DNA from: Trebonia sp.
Lineage (GTDB): Bacteria > Actinomycetota > Actinomycetes > Streptosporangiales > Streptosporangiaceae
DNA: 23,850 nucleotides
Reading direction: 5' to 3'
Assembly (NCBI GenBank): GCA_030038035.1
Contig: JASHPP010000682.1
Span: forward strand, 1 to 23,850
Part shown: piece after piece, positions 1,713 through 14,440 of the stretch
How the letters are laid out: every line of letters begins with the position of its first letter
How positions within the stretch are numbered: position 1 is the stretch's first letter
The notes under the pieces: model-generated
What the model was told of the DNA's origin: nothing
The model's input: only the letters and a program-made list of their open reading frames with translations
The model's database searches: none
Program-made: the position numbers and the translations under genes

Positions 1713-1729
1713 GATCTCATCTCGCCTGC

Positions 1730-3480
<1,751 letters not shown>

Positions 3481-3892: not shown

Positions 3893-4063
3893 CGCTTGCT
3901 CCTTAGCGCAGAGGTGAACAGGGCGCCGGATGGCTGCGCGGGCGCGTCCTCCAGGCCCGGCGCGCGATAACTTTCTCCGCGCGGCAGGCTGTCCCGCATC
4001 GCCCCGCGCGGGTGATTGACGCGTATCCGCGCCCGCGGAACCGGCAGAATCGCGGAAGGCTTG

Positions 4064-5812
4064 TCAGCCGTGGCCCAGCCGGACGGCCTTGACGATCAGC
4101 AGCAGCACCGAGATCACGAGGTACCCGCGCAGGGTCAGCACGCCAATCTTGGTCAGCGGCGACCACTGCACGGGCTTGAGCAGCGCGAGCGGCGGCATCC
4201 GCCAGCTCATGCGTTCGGCCGGGGACATGGCGGCGCGCGGGTGCGGCGGCGGCGCGGGGCTCCGCCGCCCGGTGATCCGGATCCACACGCCGGCCAGGGC
4301 GGCGAAGGCAAGCAGCGCGACGGCCACCCAAACCGCGACCGTGGTCGCGCTGATGCCGGGGAACAGCGTGCTGATGACCAGCGTGCCCGACAGCACGAGC
4401 AGCACGCCGATGATGAACACCGCAACGATGTTCAGCCACCGCGGGTTCATCCACGGGCCGAGCACCTCGCGGTCGTTGCACAGCAGCAGCAGGAACACGC
4501 TCGCGCTCGGCAGCAGGATCCCGGCCAGCGCCTGCACCGCGGTGGTGAGCAGCCCGAGCGGGGTGCCCGGGATGAGCACGATCGTCGCCGCGAGCACGAT
4601 CATGGCGACGTAGAAGGCGTAGAACGGCTTGGCGTCCTTGAACGAGCGGTGCAGCGAGTGCCTGATGCCGAACACGTCGCCGAACGCGTAGCTGGTGGAC
4701 AAGGTGACCGACGCCGCGCCGATGATCGACGCGTCGAGCAGCACGATCGAGAACGCCGCGCCGTACCAGCCGCCGTGCATCTCCAGCGCGTGCGCCACCC
4801 CGAGCGCATCGGTGAAGTTCCCGGCCAGGTGGGTGCCGCGGACGGCGAAGACCGCGGAAATCAGGATCAGCGAGGCCCCGATCACCACGACGAAAGCGCC
4901 CACCGTGGTGTCGGCCCGCTCGTACGGGATGAACCGCGGGGTGATCCGCTTGTCGATGACGTTCGACTGCTGGAAGAACAGCTGCCAGGGGGCGACGGTG
5001 GTGCCCACGATCGCGATGATCAGGAGCACCGAGGTGGAGGTGAACCCCCCCTGCACGCCGGGCACGACGAAGTGGTAGCCGATCTGACTCCAGTGCGGGC
5101 CGGACGTGAGCCCGAGCGGAATCAGGATCAAGCTCACCGCGATAAACCCGAACAGCGCCTGTTCCCAGCGGCGGAAGCTGCCGCTCGCGGTGATGGCGAC
5201 CAGGACGACTCCGGTGACCGGCACCGAGACGTACGGGGTGACGTGGAAATACTGCAGCGCCAGGGAGACGCCGATGAATTCGGTGACGATCGTCAGGAAG
5301 TTCAGGATGAACAGGTCGCCCACGCTGAACCAGCCCCAGAACCTGCCGAACCGCTCGTTGATGAGCCGGGCGTGCCCTACGCCGGTGACCGCGCCGAGCC
5401 GGACCACCATCTCCTGGTTGACGATAAGCACCGGGATCAGCAGCAGCAGCGTCCACAGCAGGCTGTAGCCGTAGTTCTGCCCCGCCTGCGCGTAGGTGGA
5501 CACGCCGCCGGCGTCGTTGTCGCCGACCATCACGATCAGCCCGGGTCCCATGACCGCGAGGAAAGTGATCAGCTTGCGCTTGACGCCGCCGCCAACTTCC
5601 TCCTCGCCGAGCCGGATCCGGCCGAGCGCGCCCTCGATGTCGCCGAGATGGGCCTCGTCGAGCACCGCGGAGGGCGGCGGCTTGGCGAGGGCCGGCCGCG
5701 TGGGCACGGACGTGCCTGCCTGCTGGGCCGGCTGGGAGGTGTCCAGGCCCTGTTCTGGTGACGCCGGGTGACCGGGCTGCTGGGGTTGTGCGGGGCCGCC
5801 TCGGGTGGTCAC
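4064..5812 (-). CDS. NRAMP-superfamily divalent cation transporter, atypical metal site (NRMT-like)
   Basis: The product is a 582-residue polytopic membrane protein with a hydrophilic N-terminus of about 75 residues and roughly 11 membrane helices. It has the NRAMP fold signature GPGLIVMV in helix 1, but the ion-site motifs are changed. The canonical DPGN of helix 1 aligns with D100-A101-G102-G103, and the canonical MPH of helix 6 aligns with A274-P275-W276, so the metal-coordinating methionine is absent. In family knowledge, methionine selects for soft transition metals, and its replacement by alanine is a mark of NRAMP-related Mg2+ transporters; Mg2+ transport here is therefore an inference. 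The GTG start at 5812 overlaps the TGA of the upstream MgtE-N/CBS gene by 4 nt (GTGA), implying translational coupling. A proton-coupled Mn2+/Fe2+ carrier is the alternative. Confidence 0.88.
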   Translation of the reverse strand: MTTRGGPAQPQQPGHPASPEQGLDTSQPAQQAGTSVPTRPALAKPPPSAVLDEAHLGDIEGALGRIRLGEEEVGGGVKRKLITFLAVMGPGLIVMVGDNDAGGVSTYAQAGQNYGYSLLWTLLLLIPVLIVNQEMVVRLGAVTGVGHARLINERFGRFWGWFSVGDLFILNFLTIVTEFIGVSLALQYFHVTPYVSVPVTGVVLVAITASGSFRRWEQALFGFIAVSLILIPLGLTSGPHWSQIGYHFVVPGVQGGFTSTSVLLIIAIVGTTVAPWQLFFQQSNVIDKRITPRFIPYERADTTVGAFVVVIGASLILISAVFAVRGTHLAGNFTDALGVAHALEMHGGWYGAAFSIVLLDASIIGAASVTLSTSYAFGDVFGIRHSLHRSFKDAKPFYAFYVAMIVLAATIVLIPGTPLGLLTTAVQALAGILLPSASVFLLLLCNDREVLGPWMNPRWLNIVAVFIIGVLLVLSGTLVISTLFPGISATTVAVWVAVALLAFAALAGVWIRITGRRSPAPPPHPRAAMSPAERMSWRMPPLALLKPVQWSPLTKIGVLTLRGYLVISVLLLIVKAVRLGHG

Positions 5813-7131
5813 CTAGCGTCCCCGTGGTGGGCGTCCGGCGGCTCCGCCGCCTCGCGCCGCCGCCAGTCGTCAGGCAACGTGATCTCCAGGATGTCGTCGA
5901 CCGTGATGACCCCGAGCAGCCGGCGCTCGTCGTCGACCACGGGGATCGTGATGAGGTTGTAGTCCGTCATGAGCACGGCGACGTCCATGACGTCGGTGTC
6001 GGTGCCCACCCTGACCGGATCCGTGTCGCACACGTCGATCAGCGTGCTGGCCGGATCGGCCTGCACCAGCGTGACCAGGCGGGCCACGCCGCGCAGGCCG
6101 CCGTCGGAGTCGACGGCGTGCACGCTGGTCAGCGCCTCCGGCTGCAGCGTGCCCGACCCGCGGATCGCGTCAAGCGCGTCCGAGACGTTCGTCATGCTCG
6201 GCACCGCAACGAAGTCCACCCCCATGAGCCCGCCGGCGCTCGTCTGGTTGAAGCCGAGCAGCGTGAGCACCTTGGTCCGCTGCGGCGACGGCAGCAGGTC
6301 GAGCACCGGCTGCCGCCGCGCCTGCGGCAGCTCGGCGATCGCGTCCGCGGCGTCGTCGGCCCGCATCCTGCTGAGCACGGCGGCGATTTCCGCGTCCGTG
6401 CGGGCACCGAGCAGCCGGGTGGCGAGGTCCTCGTCCAGTTCCTCGAAGACGTCCGCCTCCAGTTCCGGGTCGTCGTGCACCCGGCCGAGGATCTCGGTCT
6501 CCTCGTTCTTCGACGCCTCCTCGAGCAGGTCCGCTATCTGAGCCGGCTTCAGCCTGCGCACCCGGGCGAACGGCCGCCGCTGGAGCGCGCTGCTCTCGTG
6601 CCCGATCAGCGACTCGAAGTCGTGCCAGTCGCGGAAGGACGGCCCGTCCGCGGCGTGCGGATCCGGACCGAGCAAGCCGAACAGCCGTCGCGGCCGGCGC
6701 CTGGTGTCCACCCCCGACAGGACCCATTCCGCGCCGTCCCTGTACAGCTGCAGGTCCCACGCGCGGACTAGCCGCGCGTTCTCCACATCGATCAGCCGGT
6801 GGCCGAGCACGTCCGCGCTGAGCAGCACCTCGCCCTCGCGCCGCTCGAAACGCCGCAGGTCGAGCTTGGCGGTCGTGAGCTTGAGCACGTCGCCGTCGAA
6901 GTCGGCGACCTTGTCCATCGGGACGAAGACCTCACGTCCCCCGCCAATCGCCGCGACCATGCCGGTGACCTGCGGGTAGTCCGAACCGCGGAGCCGCACG
7001 ATCACATCGGACACCCGTCCGAGCGACTCGCCGCCGCTGTCGGCGACGGGCCGCTTGAGCAGGGTGGAAAGGCGCATCGTCTGCCCGCGTTCCGCCGTCG
7101 GAGGCGGTGACGCAGGCGATGTACTGGTCAT
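5809..7131 (-). CDS. PRC-barrel / MgtE N-domain / CBS-pair soluble protein
   Basis: The product is a 440-residue protein with no membrane helices. After a Ser/Pro-rich leader it has PRC-barrel-like regions (about 19-95 and probably 100-160), an MgtE intracellular N-domain of helical repeats (about 180-320, e.g. LKPAQIADLLEEA, RMRADDAADAIAELP) and a tandem CBS pair (about 325-425, ending PVVDDERRLLGVITVDDILEITLP). In MgtE channels the N and CBS domains bind Mg2+ and gate the attached pore; this protein has no pore domain. Its stop overlaps the start of the NRAMP-like gene by 4 nt, so it is not a broken mgtE but the first gene of a coupled pair. AAGAGG about 9 nt upstream supports ATG 7131; M19 (MRLSTLL) is an alternative. 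The suggested role, Mg2+ sensor or regulator of the adjacent transporter, is inferred. Confidence 0.9.
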   Translation of the reverse strand: MTSTSPASPPPTAERGQTMRLSTLLKRPVADSGGESLGRVSDVIVRLRGSDYPQVTGMVAAIGGGREVFVPMDKVADFDGDVLKLTTAKLDLRRFERREGEVLLSADVLGHRLIDVENARLVRAWDLQLYRDGAEWVLSGVDTRRRPRRLFGLLGPDPHAADGPSFRDWHDFESLIGHESSALQRRPFARVRRLKPAQIADLLEEASKNEETEILGRVHDDPELEADVFEELDEDLATRLLGARTDAEIAAVLSRMRADDAADAIAELPQARRQPVLDLLPSPQRTKVLTLLGFNQTSAGGLMGVDFVAVPSMTNVSDALDAIRGSGTLQPEALTSVHAVDSDGGLRGVARLVTLVQADPASTLIDVCDTDPVRVGTDTDVMDVAVLMTDYNLITIPVVDDERRLLGVITVDDILEITLPDDWRRREAAEPPDAHHGDAR

Positions 7132-7423
7132 GTTGATGCCTCTTGATTAGCTAGCACTGCGTTTACGTGCGGGGACAGGCCGTCCCGCGATCCCTATGTT
7201 CCCCGCGAAAAATCCCCCGGTCACCGGAACGCGCTTCGCCGCACCCGATGACTCCCCGTTCCACGGCATCACCATCCCACCCGCAAGTGAACGCCAGGTT
7301 GACGGTGTCCCTTCCCGGGGGCTATTCCTGGTCCTCGGGGGTACCCCGACGCACCGCGCATAACCTGGTGCGTTGAGGTGATAAGAAGTCACCGGCACGT
7401 TTGACCGACGAAAGGCGCAGATC
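7132..7423. promoter_or_regulatory. Divergent promoter region between MgtE-N/CBS gene and first KimA-like gene
   Basis: This 292-bp gene-free stretch must hold the promoters for both directions. Towards the minus-strand gene there is a hairpin at 7169-7188 (GGGAC/GTCCC core with one bulge allowing a longer stem) about 38 nt before the ATG, and an AT-richer TAGCTAATC just before the ribosome-binding site. Towards the plus-strand gene lie three tandem hairpins (listed separately). I do not see the conserved cores of the M-box Mg2+ riboswitch or the ydaO c-di-AMP riboswitch. Confidence 0.5.
7335..7393 (+). promoter_or_regulatory. Three tandem hairpins in leader of first KimA-like gene
   Basis: Three perfect stems lie end to end, 31 nt before the start codon. 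The first is TCGGGG-gta-CCCCGA (7335-7349). The second is ACGCACC (7349-7355) with GGTGCGT (7367-7373), loop 11 nt. The third is GGTGA (7377-7381) with TCACC (7389-7393), loop 7 nt. The first two share one base, so they may compete. This could be a structured 5' UTR or protein-binding sites; no known RNA family is recognised. Confidence 0.4.
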
Positions 7424-9898
7424 GTGGCCATGCCCGAGCCAGTGGGCCTGCTTGACGGGCGCGGCAGCCAGCCGGACGGCTTCTGGTACACCGCGAAGCG
7501 GCGGATGCTCGGCCCGCCCCTGGTCAACGAGCAGCTCGGCGAGCAGCGGCTGTCCAAGCCGCTGGCGCTTGGCGTCTTGTCGCCTGACGGGATCTCGTCG
7601 TCCGCGTACGGCACCGAGGAGATCCTGATCGCGCTGCTACCGCTGGCCGGCCTGGCGGCGTTCACCCTGATTCTCCCGATGACGCTGGTCATCCTGCTCG
7701 TGATGACGCTCGTGGTGCTCTCCTACAGGGAAGTCGTCATGGTCTACATCAGGCCGGGCGGCTCCTATGTGGTGGCGCGGGAGAATTTCGGGCCCCGGGT
7801 CGCGCAGATCTGCGCGGTGGCGCTGCTCATCGACTACGTGGTGACCGTCGCCGTCCAGATCGCCGCCGGCACGGCGGCCGTCGCCTCGGCGTTCCCGGCC
7901 ATCGGGCCGTACAAGCTGGAGATCTGCGTCGGCGTCGTGCTCGTGATGTGCTACGGCAACCTGCGCGGCATCAAGGAAGCGGGCCGGGCGTTCGCCGTGC
8001 CCACGTACCTGTTCGCGGGTTCGGTCATCTTGATGATCGTGGTCGGCCTGGTCCGCGAGGTCATGGGCAACCTCCCGCTCTACGACCCGAAGACGATGCA
8101 CGGCACTTACACGCTCGGCTCGGGGACCGCGGGACTGATCAGCGGCGTGATGATCTTCACGCTGCTGCGCGCGTTCGCCAACGGCGGCGCGTCGCTGACC
8201 GGCATCGAGGCGGTGAGCGACGCGGTGGGCGCGTTCCATCCGCCGGAGGGGGTCAACGCCCGCCGGGTGCTGATCACCGAGGGGCTCATCCTGGGCACGC
8301 TCGTGGCCGGGATCTCCTGGCTCGCGCACGCCACGCATGCCACGCCCTATGTCGCCGGCTACCCGACGGTGCTGGCGCAGGAAGCCAAGATCGTCTTCGG
8401 GCACACGTTCCTCGGGCAGGCCTTGTTCCTGCTGGTGCAGGCGGCGACCATGCTGATCCTGTACACAGGCGGCAACACCAGCTTCAACGGGTTCCCGTTC
8501 CTGACCAGCTACGTCGCGGGGGACTCGTTCCTGCCGCGCTGGCTGCTCAAGCGCGGCCACCGGCTGGTGTTCTCCAACGCGATCATCCTGCTGACGATCG
8601 TCTCGGTCGCGCTGCTGATCGTCAAGAACGCGGACGTCAACAGCCTGGTGCCGCTGTACGCGATCGGCGTGTTCACCGCGTTCTCGATGGCCGGCTTCGG
8701 CATGGCCAAGTACCACCACACCCACCGGGAGCAGGGCTGGCGGCACAGGTTCGCGATCAACTTCTCGGCCGGGCTGCTGACCTCGGTCGTCGTGGTGATC
8801 TTCGCGGTCGTGAAGTTCGCGGAAGGCGCCTGGCTGGTCCTTGTGCTCTTCCTCGTGCTGGTCCCCGCGCTGATCCGGCTGAACGCCGAATACCGGGCGG
8901 AGGCCGAAGTCCTCGATACGGTCAGCGGCGAGCAGCCGAGCCCCGCCCCGCATTACTCCCGGCGCGTGGTCTTCGTCTTCGTGGACAGCTTCGACCTGGC
9001 CACGCTCGCGGCGCTCCGCTACGCACGGAGCCAGCGGCCCACGACGATCCGCGCGGTGCACTTCGTCATCGACAATGTGCGGGCCGAGAGGCTGCGCGAG
9101 AAGTGGACCCGGGCAGACCGCGGCGTCGCCCTCGACTTCATCGACTGCCCCGACCGCCGGCTCACCAAGGCCGCGAGCGAACTGGCCGAGCGGGAGGTCC
9201 AGGATCCGGGCACGTACGTGACCGTGATCCTGCCGCGGCGCAGCTACTCCCCGCTCCTCGGGCGGCTGCTGCACGACCGCACGGCGGACAAGATCGCCGC
9301 CGCGGTCAGCCGCATCCCGCGGTCGGCCGCCACCATCGTCCCGTACGACGTGCCGAGCCGGGTGGCGGTACTGCAGGCACGCCAGGCGGCGGCCAGATCG
9401 GCCAGGCTCGCGAAGCCCGCCGCGGCGCCGGCGCCGGCCGCGGCGGAACCGGCCGAGGGCGACGCCGCGCAGGCGGCCACCGCCACGGAACTCGCGCTCG
9501 AGGCGGACATCGCCGCTCGCCATGCCCTGCTGGGCAATGAGCGAGCCGCGCCGCCCCGCCCGGCCAGGCGGCACCCCGGCAGCGGCGACGAGCAGGGAGC
9601 GCCGGCCGCGGCACCGAGCGTTTCCCCGATCGGCTCGGTGACCTCGCCGGGGAAGGCCACGGTCGAGGGGCGGATCCGGGTCGTCGAGATCCGGCCGGTC
9701 GAGCGGAACTCGGTGCTGGCCGTGGAGATCAGCGACCACACGGGCAGCCTGACCGCGATGTTCTACGGCAGGTCGCACATTCCTGGTCTGGTCTGCGGGG
9801 CGCGGGTCCGGTTCCACGGCCCGGCCGGGATCCGCGGCGGCCAGCCCGTGATGATCAACCCCGCTTATGAGCTGCTCTTCCCCAGCAGGGACCAGTAG
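7424..9898 (+). CDS. KimA-like APC-superfamily permease with USP-like and OB-fold C-terminus
   Basis: The product has 824 residues. Residues about 45-490 form some 12 membrane helices with APC-superfamily features (GILSPDGISSSAYGTEE-like helix 1, RPGGSYVVARENFG, TGGNTSFNGFPFL). The closest named relatives I recognise are the KimA/YdaO high-affinity K+ uptake proteins; an amino-acid permease is the alternative. A USP-like cytoplasmic domain follows (about 510-650, VVFVFVDSFDLATLAALRYAR to SYSPLLGRLLHDRTADKI), then an Ala/Pro linker, then an OB-fold (about 737-820, GKATVEGRIRVVEIRPVE to MINPAYELL). In mycobacteria an OB-fold protein of this type is a separate gene near the permease and the trkA genes; here it is fused. 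GAAAGG 8 nt upstream favours GTG 7424 over ATG 7430. It converges on its paralogue with a 3-bp gap. Confidence 0.9.
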   Translation: MAMPEPVGLLDGRGSQPDGFWYTAKRRMLGPPLVNEQLGEQRLSKPLALGVLSPDGISSSAYGTEEILIALLPLAGLAAFTLILPMTLVILLVMTLVVLSYREVVMVYIRPGGSYVVARENFGPRVAQICAVALLIDYVVTVAVQIAAGTAAVASAFPAIGPYKLEICVGVVLVMCYGNLRGIKEAGRAFAVPTYLFAGSVILMIVVGLVREVMGNLPLYDPKTMHGTYTLGSGTAGLISGVMIFTLLRAFANGGASLTGIEAVSDAVGAFHPPEGVNARRVLITEGLILGTLVAGISWLAHATHATPYVAGYPTVLAQEAKIVFGHTFLGQALFLLVQAATMLILYTGGNTSFNGFPFLTSYVAGDSFLPRWLLKRGHRLVFSNAIILLTIVSVALLIVKNADVNSLVPLYAIGVFTAFSMAGFGMAKYHHTHREQGWRHRFAINFSAGLLTSVVVVIFAVVKFAEGAWLVLVLFLVLVPALIRLNAEYRAEAEVLDTVSGEQPSPAPHYSRRVVFVFVDSFDLATLAALRYARSQRPTTIRAVHFVIDNVRAERLREKWTRADRGVALDFIDCPDRRLTKAASELAEREVQDPGTYVTVILPRRSYSPLLGRLLHDRTADKIAAAVSRIPRSAATIVPYDVPSRVAVLQARQAAARSARLAKPAAAPAPAAAEPAEGDAAQAATATELALEADIAARHALLGNERAAPPRPARRHPGSGDEQGAPAAAPSVSPIGSVTSPGKATVEGRIRVVEIRPVERNSVLAVEISDHTGSLTAMFYGRSHIPGLVCGARVRFHGPAGIRGGQPVMINPAYELLFPSRDQ

Positions 9899-9901
9899 GA
9901 G

Positions 9902-12340
9902 TCATTCCGCCGCGCCCCTGGGCAGCAGCTGGTACGCCGGGTTGATCATGGCCGGACCGTCTTCGCGCATCGACACCTTGCCGTCCAGCCGCAGCCGCGC
10001 GCCGGGTTCCACGCCGGGAATGTGGGTGCGGCCGTAGAACATGGCTGTCAGCGTCCCGGTCCCATCGGTCACCGTGCACTCGAACACGCAGTTCTGCTCC
10101 ACCGGGCGGATCTCCACCGCCCGTACCTTGCCCTCGATCGTCGCCTTCCCCGGCCCGCTGAGCGCGCCGATCGGCGTCACGCCGGGCGGCAGCACCGCGG
10201 CCCGTACTTCGGATCCGTCCTCCTTGCCGACCTGGGCCGCGGCAGCCGGGCTCTTTTCTGTCGTCTGAACGGGCGCTGGCGTCTGCCCTGCCGCTGCCCC
10301 TGTCGCCGCGAGGTGGGCGGCGTGCCGGGCGTGGAGCACCTGGACCCGGCTCTCGACATCGAACGGGATGATCGTCGCGGCGGAGTTGGGCACCCGGCTG
10401 ACCACCGAGGCGATCTTGTCCGCCGTGCGGTCGTGCAGCAGCCGCCCGAGGAGCGGGGAGTAGCTGCGCCGCGGCAGCACCACGGTGACGTGCGTGCCGT
10501 TCTGGGCCGCTTCCTGGCTGACAAGCTCCACGGAAGCCCGCAGCAGCCTGCGGTCCGGCGTATCGATCATCTCCAGCGGGATGCCCTGCCCGAACCGCAC
10601 CCAGTTCTCGCGCAGCTTGTCGGCCTGGGCGGCGTCGATGACGAAGTGCACCGCTCGCACGGTCGTCGGCCGCAGGCCACGGGCGTACCTGATGGCCGCG
10701 AACGTCGCCAGGTCCACGCTGTCCACGAAGATCAGCACCACGCGGCGGCTGTAGTTCGGCTGCCGCAGCGTGATCGTGGCCGCCCGCTCGCTGATGTTCT
10801 GCAGGACCTCGGCCTCCATCCGGTACTGCCGGTTCAGCCTGATCAGCAGCAGCACCAGGAGCGGGAACACGACGACGATTACCCAGGCGCCCTCGGTGAA
10901 CTTCACGACCGCGAAGATCGCCACGACGATCGCGGTGTAGACGGCCGCGGTCCGGTTGATCACCAGTCGCCGCCGCCAGCCGCTTTCCTTGACCCGCCTG
11001 TGGTACTTGGCCATGCCGAACCCCGCCATCGAGAACCCGGTGAACACGCCGATCGCGTAGAAGGGGATCAGGCCGTTGACCTTCGCGCCCGTGCTGATCA
11101 GCAGCACCAGCGAGACGATCGTGAGCACGATGATGCCGTTGGACAGCGCGAGCCGGTGGCCGCGCTTGGTCAGCCAGCGGGGCAGGAACGAGTCGCCCGC
11201 GACGAAGCTGGCCAGGAACGGGAACCCGCTGAAGCTGGTGTTGCCGCCAGTGAACAGGATCAGCGCGGTGGCCGCCTGCACCACGAAGTACATGAAGTGA
11301 CCGGCGGTGCCGAAGACGACATTGGCCTCCTGGGCTAGCACGGTCGGATATCCCGCCTCGTAGGGGATCGCGTGGGTGACGTGCGCCAGCCAGGAGATGC
11401 CGGCGATGAGGAACGCGACGATCGACCCCTGGGTGACCAGGATCTGCCTGGCGTTGCGGCCCTCCGGCGGGCGCAGCGCGCTGACCGCGTTGGAGACGGC
11501 CTCAATGCCGGTAAGCGACGATCCGCCGTTGGCGAAAGCCTTCGCCAGCATGTAGATCAGCCCGAGGCTGAGGATGCCCTCTGTGCTGTGCCCGATCGGG
11601 AACGTGGCACCGGAGTACGGGCTGACGTGCGGCAGCCCGCTGGTCAGCTCGCGGGCCAGGCCGATGATGATCATCAGGCCCACCGAGACGGAGAACAGGT
11701 AGGTCGGCAGCGCGAACGCGCGCCCGGCCTCGCGGATGCCGCGGAGGTTGCCGTAGCACATGATGAGCACCGCGATCACCGAGATGACCGTCAGGATGTC
11801 GGGCCCGATGACCGGGATGCTGCCGAGCTGAGGGAACGCGGACACGATCGCCGCGCTGCCCGCGGCGGTCTGCACCGCGACCGTCACCGTGTAGTCGATG
11901 AGCAGCGCCACCGCGGCCACCTGCGCCACCCGCGGGCCGAAGTTCTCCCGCGCCACCACGTAGGAACCGCCAGCCCGGGTGTAGACCGAGACGACCTCGC
12001 GATAGGAAAGCACGACCAGGGCGACGCCTGCGAGGATCACCAGCGTCATCGGCAGGATCAGCGTGAACGCCGCGAGGCCGACCACCTGGATCATCTCGAT
12101 CAGCATCTCCTCGGTGCCGTACGCGGCCGAGGAGATCCCGTCACAGGACAGCACGCCAAGCGCGAGCGGCCTGGACAGCCGCTCCTCAGAGATCTGGTCG
12201 TTCACCAACGGGGGCCCGAGCAGCCGGCGCTTCAGCGAGTAGCCGAACGTCTCGGGCAGCCTGCTATCGGGCAGGGCGACGCCGGACAGCTCATCCGGCA
12301 TGCCGCCGTCAGCCAGCCCGGTCCCCTGCGGTGCCGCCAC
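9902..12340 (-). CDS. Second KimA-like permease with USP-like and OB-fold C-terminus (paralogue)
   Basis: This 812-residue paralogue of the neighbouring permease keeps the same order throughout: N-terminal RRLLGPPLVNDQISEERLS, about 12 membrane helices (about 50-500) with TGGNTSFSGFPFL, a USP-like domain (about 528-670, VVLIFVDSVDLATFAAIRYAR) and a C-terminal OB-fold (about 728-808, GKATIEGKVRAVEIRPVE to MINPAYQLL). The linker sequences differ strongly while the domains are alike, which fits an old duplication. GGAGG 9 nt before GTG 12340 fixes the start. It is divergent from the kdpD-like gene across a 258-bp region carrying GTTAAG repeats, so control by the adjacent KdpE is plausible. Role by analogy: K+ uptake or exchange; the substrate cannot be proven from sequence. 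Confidence 0.9.
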   Translation of the reverse strand: MAAPQGTGLADGGMPDELSGVALPDSRLPETFGYSLKRRLLGPPLVNDQISEERLSRPLALGVLSCDGISSAAYGTEEMLIEMIQVVGLAAFTLILPMTLVILAGVALVVLSYREVVSVYTRAGGSYVVARENFGPRVAQVAAVALLIDYTVTVAVQTAAGSAAIVSAFPQLGSIPVIGPDILTVISVIAVLIMCYGNLRGIREAGRAFALPTYLFSVSVGLMIIIGLARELTSGLPHVSPYSGATFPIGHSTEGILSLGLIYMLAKAFANGGSSLTGIEAVSNAVSALRPPEGRNARQILVTQGSIVAFLIAGISWLAHVTHAIPYEAGYPTVLAQEANVVFGTAGHFMYFVVQAATALILFTGGNTSFSGFPFLASFVAGDSFLPRWLTKRGHRLALSNGIIVLTIVSLVLLISTGAKVNGLIPFYAIGVFTGFSMAGFGMAKYHRRVKESGWRRRLVINRTAAVYTAIVVAIFAVVKFTEGAWVIVVVFPLLVLLLIRLNRQYRMEAEVLQNISERAATITLRQPNYSRRVVLIFVDSVDLATFAAIRYARGLRPTTVRAVHFVIDAAQADKLRENWVRFGQGIPLEMIDTPDRRLLRASVELVSQEAAQNGTHVTVVLPRRSYSPLLGRLLHDRTADKIASVVSRVPNSAATIIPFDVESRVQVLHARHAAHLAATGAAAGQTPAPVQTTEKSPAAAAQVGKEDGSEVRAAVLPPGVTPIGALSGPGKATIEGKVRAVEIRPVEQNCVFECTVTDGTGTLTAMFYGRTHIPGVEPGARLRLDGKVSMREDGPAMINPAYQLLPRGAAE

Positions 12341-12598: not shown

Positions 12599-14440
12599 AT
12601 GACAAGCACGATGACTGGTGGACGGCATGAGACACCGCTACGCTGGCGCCGTCACGCAGCGCGACGCTTGCCGGGCCGGCCGGGACTTCCGGCCCCCTAT
12701 GCGCTGCCGGCCGGCTTCGCCGCGCTGTTCGCCGTGGGCACGGTGGCCGCGGCTCTGAACGGGCGGCTGTCCGCCACCGGAGTGCTGCTGTGCAGCGCGG
12801 TCGTGGTCACGGCCGTCTCGGTTCTCGCCACGCCGGCGGCGGCAGTGCCGCTTGGCGTCATCGGCTGGCTGACCGTCATCGGGTTCTCGCGGCCCCCTTA
12901 CGCTGACCTCCGGCCGACCGGAGCGACTGCCGCGCTCGCCGCGATCACCATGGCGGCGTGCGCGCTGTGCGGAGCCCTGGCGGGCGTGCTGTTCCGGTAC
13001 TGGACGGCGCGGGTCACACTAGAGAGCGTGGACCGGCAGAAAGAGAGCGGCATCAATGCCCGCAGGCAGCTGGCCGGCGCGGCGCTCGCCGCAGCCGGGC
13101 TGCCGCTGCTCACCGTGGTGCTCGCCGCCCTGCGTCCGCACCTGAACCTCTCCGACGACCTGCTGATCTACCTGGTCGCGGTGGTGGCGGTCACGGTGGT
13201 CGGCGGATTCTGGCCGGCGGTGTTCGCCGCCGTGGCCGCCAGCTTGCTGCTGAACTGGTACTTCACAGAACCGCTGCACACCTTCACGATCGCAGAACCG
13301 AAGAACCTGCTCGCGCTCGTGCTGTTCGTCACGGTCGCCGTCGCGGTGAGCAGCGTGGTGCACCTCGCCGCGCGACGCGAGGCGGATGCCGCCAGGAGCG
13401 CGAAGGAAACCGCGTCCCTGCTCGGCCTCGCGCAGACGGTACTCGGCGGCACGGACACCCCCGCCGATGTGCTCGAGCATCTGACCAGCAGCCACGGCGG
13501 CCAGGCCGACCTGCTGGAACGCGTGGGCGCCAAGTGGATCAAGGTGGCGACGAGCGGCGCGGCGGACCCGGGCGCGGCGGTCATCCGGTTTGAAGTCAGG
13601 CCCGACCTGGCGCTTGAGGTAAGCGGGCAGGCGGCCACCGCGACCGCCGCGCTGCTGGCCGGCTACACCGCTCAGGCGGTGGCGGCCCTGGACCGGGCAC
13701 GGCTGCGCACCCAGGCGGCCCAGGCGGAGGCGCTCGCCGAGGGGAACCGGATGCGGACCGCGCTGCTCGCCGCGGTCAGCCACGACCTGCGCACCCCGCT
13801 GGCGTCCATCAAGGCCAGCGTCAGCAGCCTCAGGCAGACCGACGTGCACTGGTCGCCGGAGGACGAGGCCGACCTGCTCGCGAACATCGAGCAGAACGCC
13901 GACCGGCTCGACGCGCTCGTCGGCAACCTGCTCGACATGAGCCGCCTGCAGACCGGGTCGCTGGCGCCCTTCCTGCGCGCCACGGCCGTGGACGAGGTAG
14001 CGCCGGTAGCCCTGCGCGGGCTCGACAACAGCGACCTGCTCGACATCGTGGTGCCTGACGACCTGCCGCTGGTCCGCGCCGACCCCGGACTGCTCGAGCG
14101 GGTGCTCGCCAACCTGTTCTCCAACGCGCTGCGGCACTCCCCGCCGGATTCCCGGCCGGCCTTGCGGGCACGGGAGGACGGTGCGCTGGTCGTGCTCGAG
14201 GTGGTTGACCACGGCAACGGAGTGCCGGGCGATGTCAAGGAGCGGATCTTCGAGCCGTTCCAGCGGCTCGACGAACGGTCGTCGGGCGTCGGGCTCGGGC
14301 TCGCGGTCGCCAAGGGCTTCGCCGAGGCGATGGGCGGCACGATCGTCGCGGTGGACACCCCGGGCGGCGGGCTTACCGTCCGGGTAACGCTGTCCGCCGA
14401 GACCAGCGGGGTCCCTGCCGCGCTCGGGTCCGGACAGTGA
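12599..14440 (+). CDS. kdpD: KdpD-type sensor histidine kinase lacking the cytoplasmic KdpD/USP region
   Basis: The product has 613 residues; full KdpD proteins are usually 800-900. Residues about 158-260 match the four-helix DUF4118 membrane domain of KdpD (LNLSDDLLIYLVAVVAV, NWYFTEPLHTFTIAEPKNLLALVLF). A GAF-like linker follows, then a HisKA domain with phosphoacceptor H395 in AAVSHDLRTPLASIK, and a HATPase domain with N-box NLFSNALRHS (N509), G1 DHGNGVP and G2 SGVGLGLAVAKG. In place of the normal N-terminal Walker/USP module there are three or four extra hydrophobic helices (about 35-130). ATG 12599 is supported by GGAAAGG 7 nt upstream. The stop is 13-16 nt before the response regulator start, so the two are co-transcribed. 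It probably responds to K+ or turgor by family, but loss of the USP region suggests altered input. Confidence 0.9.
   Translation: MTSTMTGGRHETPLRWRRHAARRLPGRPGLPAPYALPAGFAALFAVGTVAAALNGRLSATGVLLCSAVVVTAVSVLATPAAAVPLGVIGWLTVIGFSRPPYADLRPTGATAALAAITMAACALCGALAGVLFRYWTARVTLESVDRQKESGINARRQLAGAALAAAGLPLLTVVLAALRPHLNLSDDLLIYLVAVVAVTVVGGFWPAVFAAVAASLLLNWYFTEPLHTFTIAEPKNLLALVLFVTVAVAVSSVVHLAARREADAARSAKETASLLGLAQTVLGGTDTPADVLEHLTSSHGGQADLLERVGAKWIKVATSGAADPGAAVIRFEVRPDLALEVSGQAATATAALLAGYTAQAVAALDRARLRTQAAQAEALAEGNRMRTALLAAVSHDLRTPLASIKASVSSLRQTDVHWSPEDEADLLANIEQNADRLDALVGNLLDMSRLQTGSLAPFLRATAVDEVAPVALRGLDNSDLLDIVVPDDLPLVRADPGLLERVLANLFSNALRHSPPDSRPALRAREDGALVVLEVVDHGNGVPGDVKERIFEPFQRLDERSSGVGLGLAVAKGFAEAMGGTIVAVDTPGGGLTVRVTLSAETSGVPAALGSGQ

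Follow-up and report, generated by a model that had tools for sequence, protein, structure and literature searches.

Operon and gene layout

The stretch analysed here, positions 1 to 23,850 of contig JASHPP010000682.1 from the actinobacterium Trebonia sp. (assembly GCA_030038035.1; hereafter the window, 23,850 nucleotides (nt) in length), contains on its minus strand a pair of genes in which a soluble sensor is encoded first (5809-7131) and a membrane carrier of the NRAMP fold second (4064-5812). Since the carrier adjoins a gene for the cytosolic domains of MgtE, the pair is an operon of the NrmT/MgtE-fragment kind. Its products are probably a cytosolic Mg2+ gauge and an NRMT carrier, the gauge slowing the carrier when Mg2+ is high. 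The pairing and the idea of feedback were already published in 2014 (PMC4072509); the linkage counts for actinobacteria, the partner classes of PRC-type sensors and the partner changes on the sensor tree are new here. The features of the pair are as follows.

4064..5812, minus strand: NRMT-type carrier (SLC11/NRAMP fold), 582 amino acids (aa), GTG start, PF01566 Nramp
5636..5662, minus strand: N-terminal LDxxHxGDI motif characteristic of the carrier sub-clade, whether or not a sensor is present
5504..5515, minus strand: helix 1 site D100-A-G-G103 (DxxG)
4985..5002, minus strand: helix 6 site T271-T-V-A274-P275-W276 (TxxA, replacing MPH)
5809..7131, minus strand: soluble sensor of PRC barrel, MgtE N domain and CBS pair, 440 aa, ATG start
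5809..5812, minus strand: 4-nt overlap GTGA of the carrier start (GTG) and the sensor stop (TGA)
6865..7080, minus strand: PRC-barrel domain, residues 18-89 (Pfam, 30.1 bits; cut-off 21.2)
6697..6846, minus strand: probable second, diverged PRC repeat, residues ~96-145, judged from relatives; a conserved block in A3
6247..6552, minus strand: MgtE N domain, residues 194-295 (Pfam, 71.5 bits), with D227, D259 and D263 where T. thermophilus MgtE (TtMgtE) has Mg2+ ligands
5857..6234, minus strand: CBS pair, residues ~300-425 (Pfam, 46.6 bits), with D380 and D413 at Mg2+-ligand positions and V353/T354 replacing R187/D188

According to the earlier note on this DNA, the GTG start of the carrier overlaps the stop of the sensor by 4 nt, and the letters GTGA at 5809-5812 bear this out. 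An overlap of exactly 4 nt is also seen in 18 of the 60 sensor-bearing loci among the best 80 of 584 confirmed loci, which were obtained by a scan of genome contigs and form the locus set used below.

The carrier

The metal site of canonical NRAMP and MntH proteins consists of DPGN and MPH. In the window carrier, the earlier note had read these as D100-A-G-G and A274-P275-W276, and both substitutions are present as it described; the site letters in the tree alignment are MDPGN/TVMPH in DraMntH versus NDAGG/TVAPW in the window. Positions D100, G102, T271, T272, P275 and W276 are invariant in the 35-row carrier alignment A5, and A274 is nearly invariant. In the published NRMT signature (PMC8806188), helix 1 has DxxG and helix 6 has TxxA/T, and the window carrier displays both, as D100-A-G-G103 and T271-T-V-A274. 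The longer N-terminal motif LDxxHxGDIxGAxG occurs in 67 of the best 80 loci and is missing from the EleNRMT-like loci L096 and L142.

As for homology, the carrier matches PF01566 with 264 bits, and it remains below threshold for the MntH family NF001923 of NCBIfam (107.4 bits, cut-off 430). The best PDB match is EleNRMT of Eggerthella lenta (7qia, E 1.9e-56), followed by B. fragilis MntH (1.6e-19). A carrier model built from 35 sequences (predicted local distance difference test (pLDDT) 87, predicted template modelling score (pTM) 0.85) has 7qia and 7qji as its top Foldseek matches, with a TM-score by target of 0.86-0.87. EleNRMT, the closest solved structure, thus shares the DxxG-TxxA site and the NRAMP fold with the window carrier, and its relatives L096 and L142 share the PRC-MgtE_N-CBS neighbour. 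It differs in sub-clade, with 31-32% identity, and in its C-terminus: two of the 13 hydrophobic segments that a Kyte-Doolittle scan finds in the window carrier lie past the final part that aligns with EleNRMT. A quick tree of 100 rows places the window carrier in a 53-row clade (SH-like approximate likelihood ratio test, SH-aLRT, 99) apart from the neighbouring clade of EleNRMT; the depth of this tree is unsure, its sole MntH outgroup, DraMntH, standing on a long branch with a long-branch warning. Tree and PDB match group the carrier with NRMT proteins, and with the NF001923 score they put it outside the canonical Mn2+/Fe2+ NRAMPs, which answers the phylogenetic check proposed in the earlier note.

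The metal site also varies within this group. A tree clade of 16 rows, in which one gene is counted twice, has DAGA, the last glycine of helix 1 being changed to alanine; 4 of its rows have a sensor and 12 have none. Carriers of this DAGA (DxxA) type include L066, L068, L072, L075-L077, L079, L080, L138 and L148. Two sensor-linked NRMT relatives, L109:2522-3763 (IGASG) and L113:2615-3853 (NGASG), are without the aligned helix 1 aspartate.

The sensor

The earlier description of the partner as a PRC barrel, an MgtE N domain and a CBS pair without the MgtE channel is confirmed for the window sensor. Pfam gives no match to the MgtE pore domain PF01769 in it, and a Kyte-Doolittle scan finds no hydrophobic segment. 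The MgtE family TIGR00400 reaches 116.1 bits over residues 192-418 only, under its cut-off of 232.75. Among solved chains, the closest in sequence are cytosolic domains of MgtE (E 6.9e-25), which the sensor model (pLDDT 79, pTM 0.40) also matches, residues 295-425 being the well-tested part of that comparison. The N domain and CBS pair of the MgtE cytosolic sensor (2yvy, 8gpv) are both present, with equivalents of D91, D95, D214 and D247. In comparison with MgtE, the window sensor is without the pore domain, has gained a PRC part, and has the ATP ligands replaced. A second PRC repeat is suggested in it because the relatives L103, L108 and L142 have more than one PRC stretch.

For the Mg2+-ligand positions of TtMgtE we assumed a list whose letters were checked against the TtMgtE sequence. 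The positions of E59, D91, D95, D214, D247 and D250 are acidic in the window sensor. Among 61 window-type sensors, the equivalents of D91, D95 and D247 are aspartate in all 61, and aspartate occupies the E59 position in 60 and the D214 position in 59. The D250 position is E or D in 55/61, D226 has become asparagine in 59/61, and E216 is kept in 6/61. The ATP ligands of MgtE are Y170, R187 and D188 (PMC5529423), and S336, V353 and T354 stand in their place in the window sensor. R187 and D188 occur together in none of the 61 window-type and none of 7 DUF1003-type sensors, and in all 11 MgtE-fused and both P-type-fused sensors.

Linkage of carrier and sensor

The adjacency of carrier and sensor exceeds chance. 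A sensor open reading frame lies beside the carrier in 60 of the best 80 loci, on the 5' side in 53, on the 3' side in 6 and on the opposite strand in 1; 6 of the 20 loci without one have less than 600 nt of upstream sequence. In Actinomycetota, 246 genomes, drawn evenly, were surveyed, and linkage was defined as a PRC-length sensor within 1.5 kb. Carriers were placed in bands by A2 score, the 330-bit limit being chosen after the scores were known. It can be seen that 45 of the 62 NRMT-type carriers (at least 330 bits) are linked, compared to 2/6 at 250-330 bits and 0/28 among the other NRAMP relatives below 250 bits. This lowest band was considered as a set of MntH-like controls and rejected, the tree showing IGPGT- and DPSG-type NRAMP relatives there. 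Of MntH itself (NF001923), none of 37 rows from 35 genomes lies within 1.5 kb of a sensor, 12 of these rows being in sensor-bearing genomes.

Outside Actinomycetota, 18 of 23 carriers are sensor-linked in Bacillota (199 genomes; the list includes three half-length matches, from position 96) and 4 of 8 in Pseudomonadota (150 genomes; two partial matches, from 85 and 102). The Acidobacteriota-titled set G005 was left out of the counts as it repeats genomes of the G001 phylum. The survey of gene linkage that the earlier note had called for finds an association conserved in three phyla, with 45/62 for NRMT-type carriers versus 0/37 for MntH in Actinomycetota. Given the NRMT-side placement and this conserved and specific linkage, two of the three outcomes that the earlier note had set against its own proposal, a place among canonical NRAMPs and a lack of conserved linkage, did not arise.

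Most of the 17 unlinked actinobacterial carriers have another neighbour. In 11 cases (L100, L155-L157, L159-L165) a PRC-only gene of ~191 aa lies directly 3' on the same strand, with a Pfam PRC match in all 3 of these genes scanned, and the same 11 genomes carry a PRC-MgtE-like fusion elsewhere. L139 is accompanied by a 274-aa sensor with a 4-nt overlap, L158 by a sensor tail at the contig end, and for L136-L138 and L154 no sensor was found in the stretch fetched. In the Bacillota genome G523 (L149), the sensor is split into two overlapping open reading frames, resembling the split gene that Shin et al. report in C. acetobutylicum (PMC4072509).

Other partners and fusions of the sensor

A total of 92 PRC-length sensors were counted among the matches listed, after matches starting beyond A3 position 21 (MgtE proper and partial ones) had been dropped. 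An NRMT-type carrier lies within 1.5 kb of 47 of them, and a DUF1003 gene stands directly 3' on the same strand of 30; none of the 92 has both neighbours. The remainder, with neither neighbour, comprises 13 sensors whose frames reach 590 codons or more and 2 sensors near contig ends. Eleven of the 13 long frames end in an MgtE-like membrane domain and two, in genomes G203 and G245, in a P-type ATPase. PF01769 is found in 6/6 of the MgtE-like fusions scanned, with which the other 5 align, and L085, the sole one run against NCBIfam, passes TIGR00400. The two ATPase fusions are 1317-aa proteins, each in a single open frame.

L083:1278-5231, minus strand: sensor-P-type ATPase fusion, one open frame
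L084:1590-5543, minus strand: sensor-P-type ATPase fusion, one open frame

L083, the fusion run against NCBIfam, passes the Mg2+ P-type ATPase family TIGR01524 with 1099 bits (cut-off 610.75). Searching proteins with the sensor portion of the ATPase fusion gave seven clusters (P0121-P0127, 1265-1318 aa), at least two of which are proteins of genomes G203/G245. All seven have MgtE_N, CBS and ATPase; PRC is matched in six, and P0126 has no precomputed PRC match. The ATPase fusions were retained on the strength of open frames in two genomes and these seven clusters. They have the same kind of sensor cassette as the window, at the N terminus, and differ from the window pair in the unrelated fold of the transporter, in the sensor being in cis and in the kept R187 and D188 of the CBS part. 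Serine occupies the E59 position in both P-type-fused sensors, which counts against an unchanged Mg2+ network there.

Membrane domains are also present in some NRMT-linked sensors. Frames of at least 590 codons occur in 21 of the 47, and 13/13 of the long ones examined have an MgtE-like membrane tail (profile match 98.7%). PF01769 scores 61.7 bits in L105 and 10.7 in L103 and is not matched in L108 and L112. The word "pore-less" in the earlier note thus holds for the window sensor and fails for these relatives. L086 and L103-L114 are NRMT-linked sensors in which the C-terminal MgtE-like membrane domain has diverged to various degrees, and in L096 and L142 the sensor neighbour has a single hydrophobic stretch at its end.

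DUF1003 (PF06210), a family of membrane proteins, has a PRC-length sensor at 30 of its 75 matches in the 246 genomes. The order sensor, then DUF1003, is seen in L087-L089, L093-L095 and L101, with some ends overlapping (4 nt in L089). A sequence search found no solved relative of DUF1003, the best E value being 0.45. A quick tree of 78 sensors, with the partner known for 76, requires at least 3 partner changes, whose direction is not readable from it. The five P-type fusions cluster in a single clade (99) next to three NRMT-linked sensors (98), and thereby nest among sensors of that class.

Mechanism and alternatives

The first gene would encode a soluble Mg2+ gauge of the cytosol that is related to MgtE's cytosolic half, and the second an NRAMP-fold NRMT carrier that would import Mg2+, and possibly Mn2+, without a proton. 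The gauge most likely attaches to the membrane protein through its PRC repeats. At high cytosolic Mg2+, its MgtE-N and CBS domains would close up and the Mg2+-bound sensor would slow the carrier, and the 4-nt overlap would couple the translation of both proteins at a fixed ratio. We infer the restraint of the carrier by the sensor from the anatomy and from the cis fusions, in which the PRC-MgtE_N-CBS cassette is joined to known kinds of Mg2+ transporter, the MgtE-like membrane domain and the Mg2+ P-type ATPase.

Shin et al. (2014) reported that most NrmT genes have a gene for the MgtE cytoplasmic domain next to them, and suggested that it serves feedback regulation (PMC4072509). Their Ca_c0685 operon of Clostridium acetobutylicum joins, as in the window, an Nramp-related carrier and an MgtE-cytosolic-domain gene (PMC4072509). 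A PRC barrel is present in the window sensor, and a term search of the main text of PMC4072509 gave no mention of one; the sequences were not compared. EleNRMT is an uncoupled Mg2+/Mn2+ transporter (PMC8806188), and a term search of that article gave no mention of a sensor neighbour of EleNRMT-type carriers.

Several observations weigh against a Mg2+ carrier held in check by its neighbour. EcoDMT with all three NRMT site residues still showed no interaction with Mg2+ (PMC8806188); therefore, the NRMT motif by itself is no proof of Mg2+ transport. An M-box lies upstream of a subset of NrmT operons (PMC4072509), whereas a scan of the whole window at Rfam gathering thresholds found none, its matches being a signal recognition particle (SRP) RNA and a tRNA only. 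In the window sensor, M, T, N and E stand where TtMgtE has E216, A223, D226 and D250, so its Mg2+ network is partly different. No sensor lies beside seven carriers that score in the same class as that of the window (Actinomycetota 3/12, Bacillota 2/2, Pseudomonadota 2/2). The sensor was dispensable in the reported assays of Ca_c0685 (PMC4072509) and of EleNRMT in proteoliposomes (PMC8806188), both of which were active without it. In the Acp2976/2977 pair of A. capsulatum, the only one for which a co-expression test was found, adding the sensor gave no better Mg2+ rescue, and the carrier, which has an MgtE-like fragment next to it and lacks an M-box, acted like a Mn2+ transporter (PMC4072509). 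Finally, no intact natural sensor-NRMT fusion was found among the database proteins examined. The candidates for such fusions were rejected: in P0131 the sequence around the joint ceases to follow that of the relative P0138 immediately ahead of the carrier part, as after a frame shift or deletion. Judged by reading the sequences, P0142 and P0146 appear frame-shifted or scrambled, and there are abrupt joins to an RND or MATE piece in P0130 and P0138 and to a heavy-metal-type ATPase piece in P0147.

It is rather improbable that the carrier sub-clade mainly imports Mn2+ and that the detached MgtE half senses this ion. The A. capsulatum carrier gave full rescue of a Mn2+ transport mutant, its rescue of a Mg2+ mutant being confined to low millimolar Mg2+ (PMC4072509), EleNRMT carries both ions (PMC8806188) and belongs to a different sub-clade from the window carrier, and the window has no M-box, all of which suit Mn2+. 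However, a Mg2+ P-type ATPase and an MgtE channel domain both occur as fusions with this cassette, and none of the 37 MntH rows lies beside a sensor, including the 12 from genomes that have a PRC-type one. The partner might also be an assembly factor, membrane scaffold or metal chaperone with leftover MgtE-type domains instead of a feedback inhibitor, which is unlikely but deserves some weight. Shin et al. named chaperone activity as an alternative role of the MgtE fragment (PMC4072509), the A. capsulatum co-expression had no effect, and the PRC-only partners, in 11/11 cases looked at, stand beside NRMT without MgtE-N and CBS. This role is opposed by the conservation of several Mg2+-ligand positions, by the MgtE-N and CBS domains kept in 45/62 actinobacterial cases, and by the fact that the genomes with PRC-only genes are the very 11 that have a PRC-MgtE fusion elsewhere.

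Ordinary clustering of unrelated ion genes in one operon, with no functional interplay, would accord with the 17/62 actinobacterial carriers that have no PRC-length sensor within 1.5 kb. It is highly improbable, however, as three phyla show the linkage, with the sensor 5' or 3' of the carrier, and none of the 37 MntH rows does, and among the 17 exceptions are the 11 PRC-only genes, the one short sensor and the one sensor tail at a contig end. Feedback of a Mg2+ gauge on an NRMT carrier thus remains the preferred explanation of the window pair.

A possible portable sensor and its significance

The survey as a whole points to a portable role for the sensor, which would serve several unrelated membrane proteins. 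That the PRC-MgtE_N-CBS cassette is a portable Mg2+ governor we put forward tentatively, giving it slightly less than even chances. The cassette would act in trans on NRMT and DUF1003 and in cis on the MgtE pore and Mg2+ P-type ATPases, with swaps of partner. The PRC repeats would be its docking half, left alone beside NRMT where the sensor is fused to the MgtE channel; ATP control would have been lost in the window-type and DUF1003-type sensors; and DUF1003 would be a Mg2+ transporter or a transporter subunit. Two findings count against this broader proposal. The loss of ATP ligands is not general, 9/22 other NRMT-linked sensors keeping R187 and D188 together. Moreover, the partner classes overlap through the 21/47 long frames, and our confidence was therefore lowered to the level given. 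A literature search, sparse in subscription journals, found nothing on the PRC part or on DUF1003 pairs; the ATPase fusion was not separately searched.

If the cassette is indeed such a governor, one Mg2+ control part is common to four unrelated families of membrane proteins, and the first functional lead for DUF1003 is obtained. The survey in any case makes the role of the small gene in the operon type of 2014 easier to test. The structurally solved EleNRMT has close relatives with a sensor neighbour, which provide a testable pair, and the PRC-only gene beside NRMT is a natural control. With the cassette fused to a Mg2+ pump, sensor action can be assayed in one polypeptide.

Surroundings of the operon

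The Rfam matches in the window are a small SRP RNA at 1727-1822 (minus strand) and a tRNA-Ser(GGA) at 1931-2019 (plus strand). The gene downstream of them, at 2038-3480, is presumably prolyl-tRNA-synthetase-like. Two convergent and related APC-type permeases (AA_permease_2) occupy 7424-9898 (plus strand) and 9902-12340 (minus strand), followed at 12599-14440 by a DUF4118/KdpD-like histidine kinase. The C-terminal ends of both permeases match RecG weakly, and that of the second has an OB-fold match slightly below cut-off. As AA_permease_2 neighbours recur in two loci only (L045, L144), the permeases are placed outside the carrier-sensor module. In L144, from Bacillota, a sensor without an NRMT neighbour (4023-5276) stands ahead of an AA_permease_2 gene (5463-7409), which is related to the window permeases with ~30% identity.

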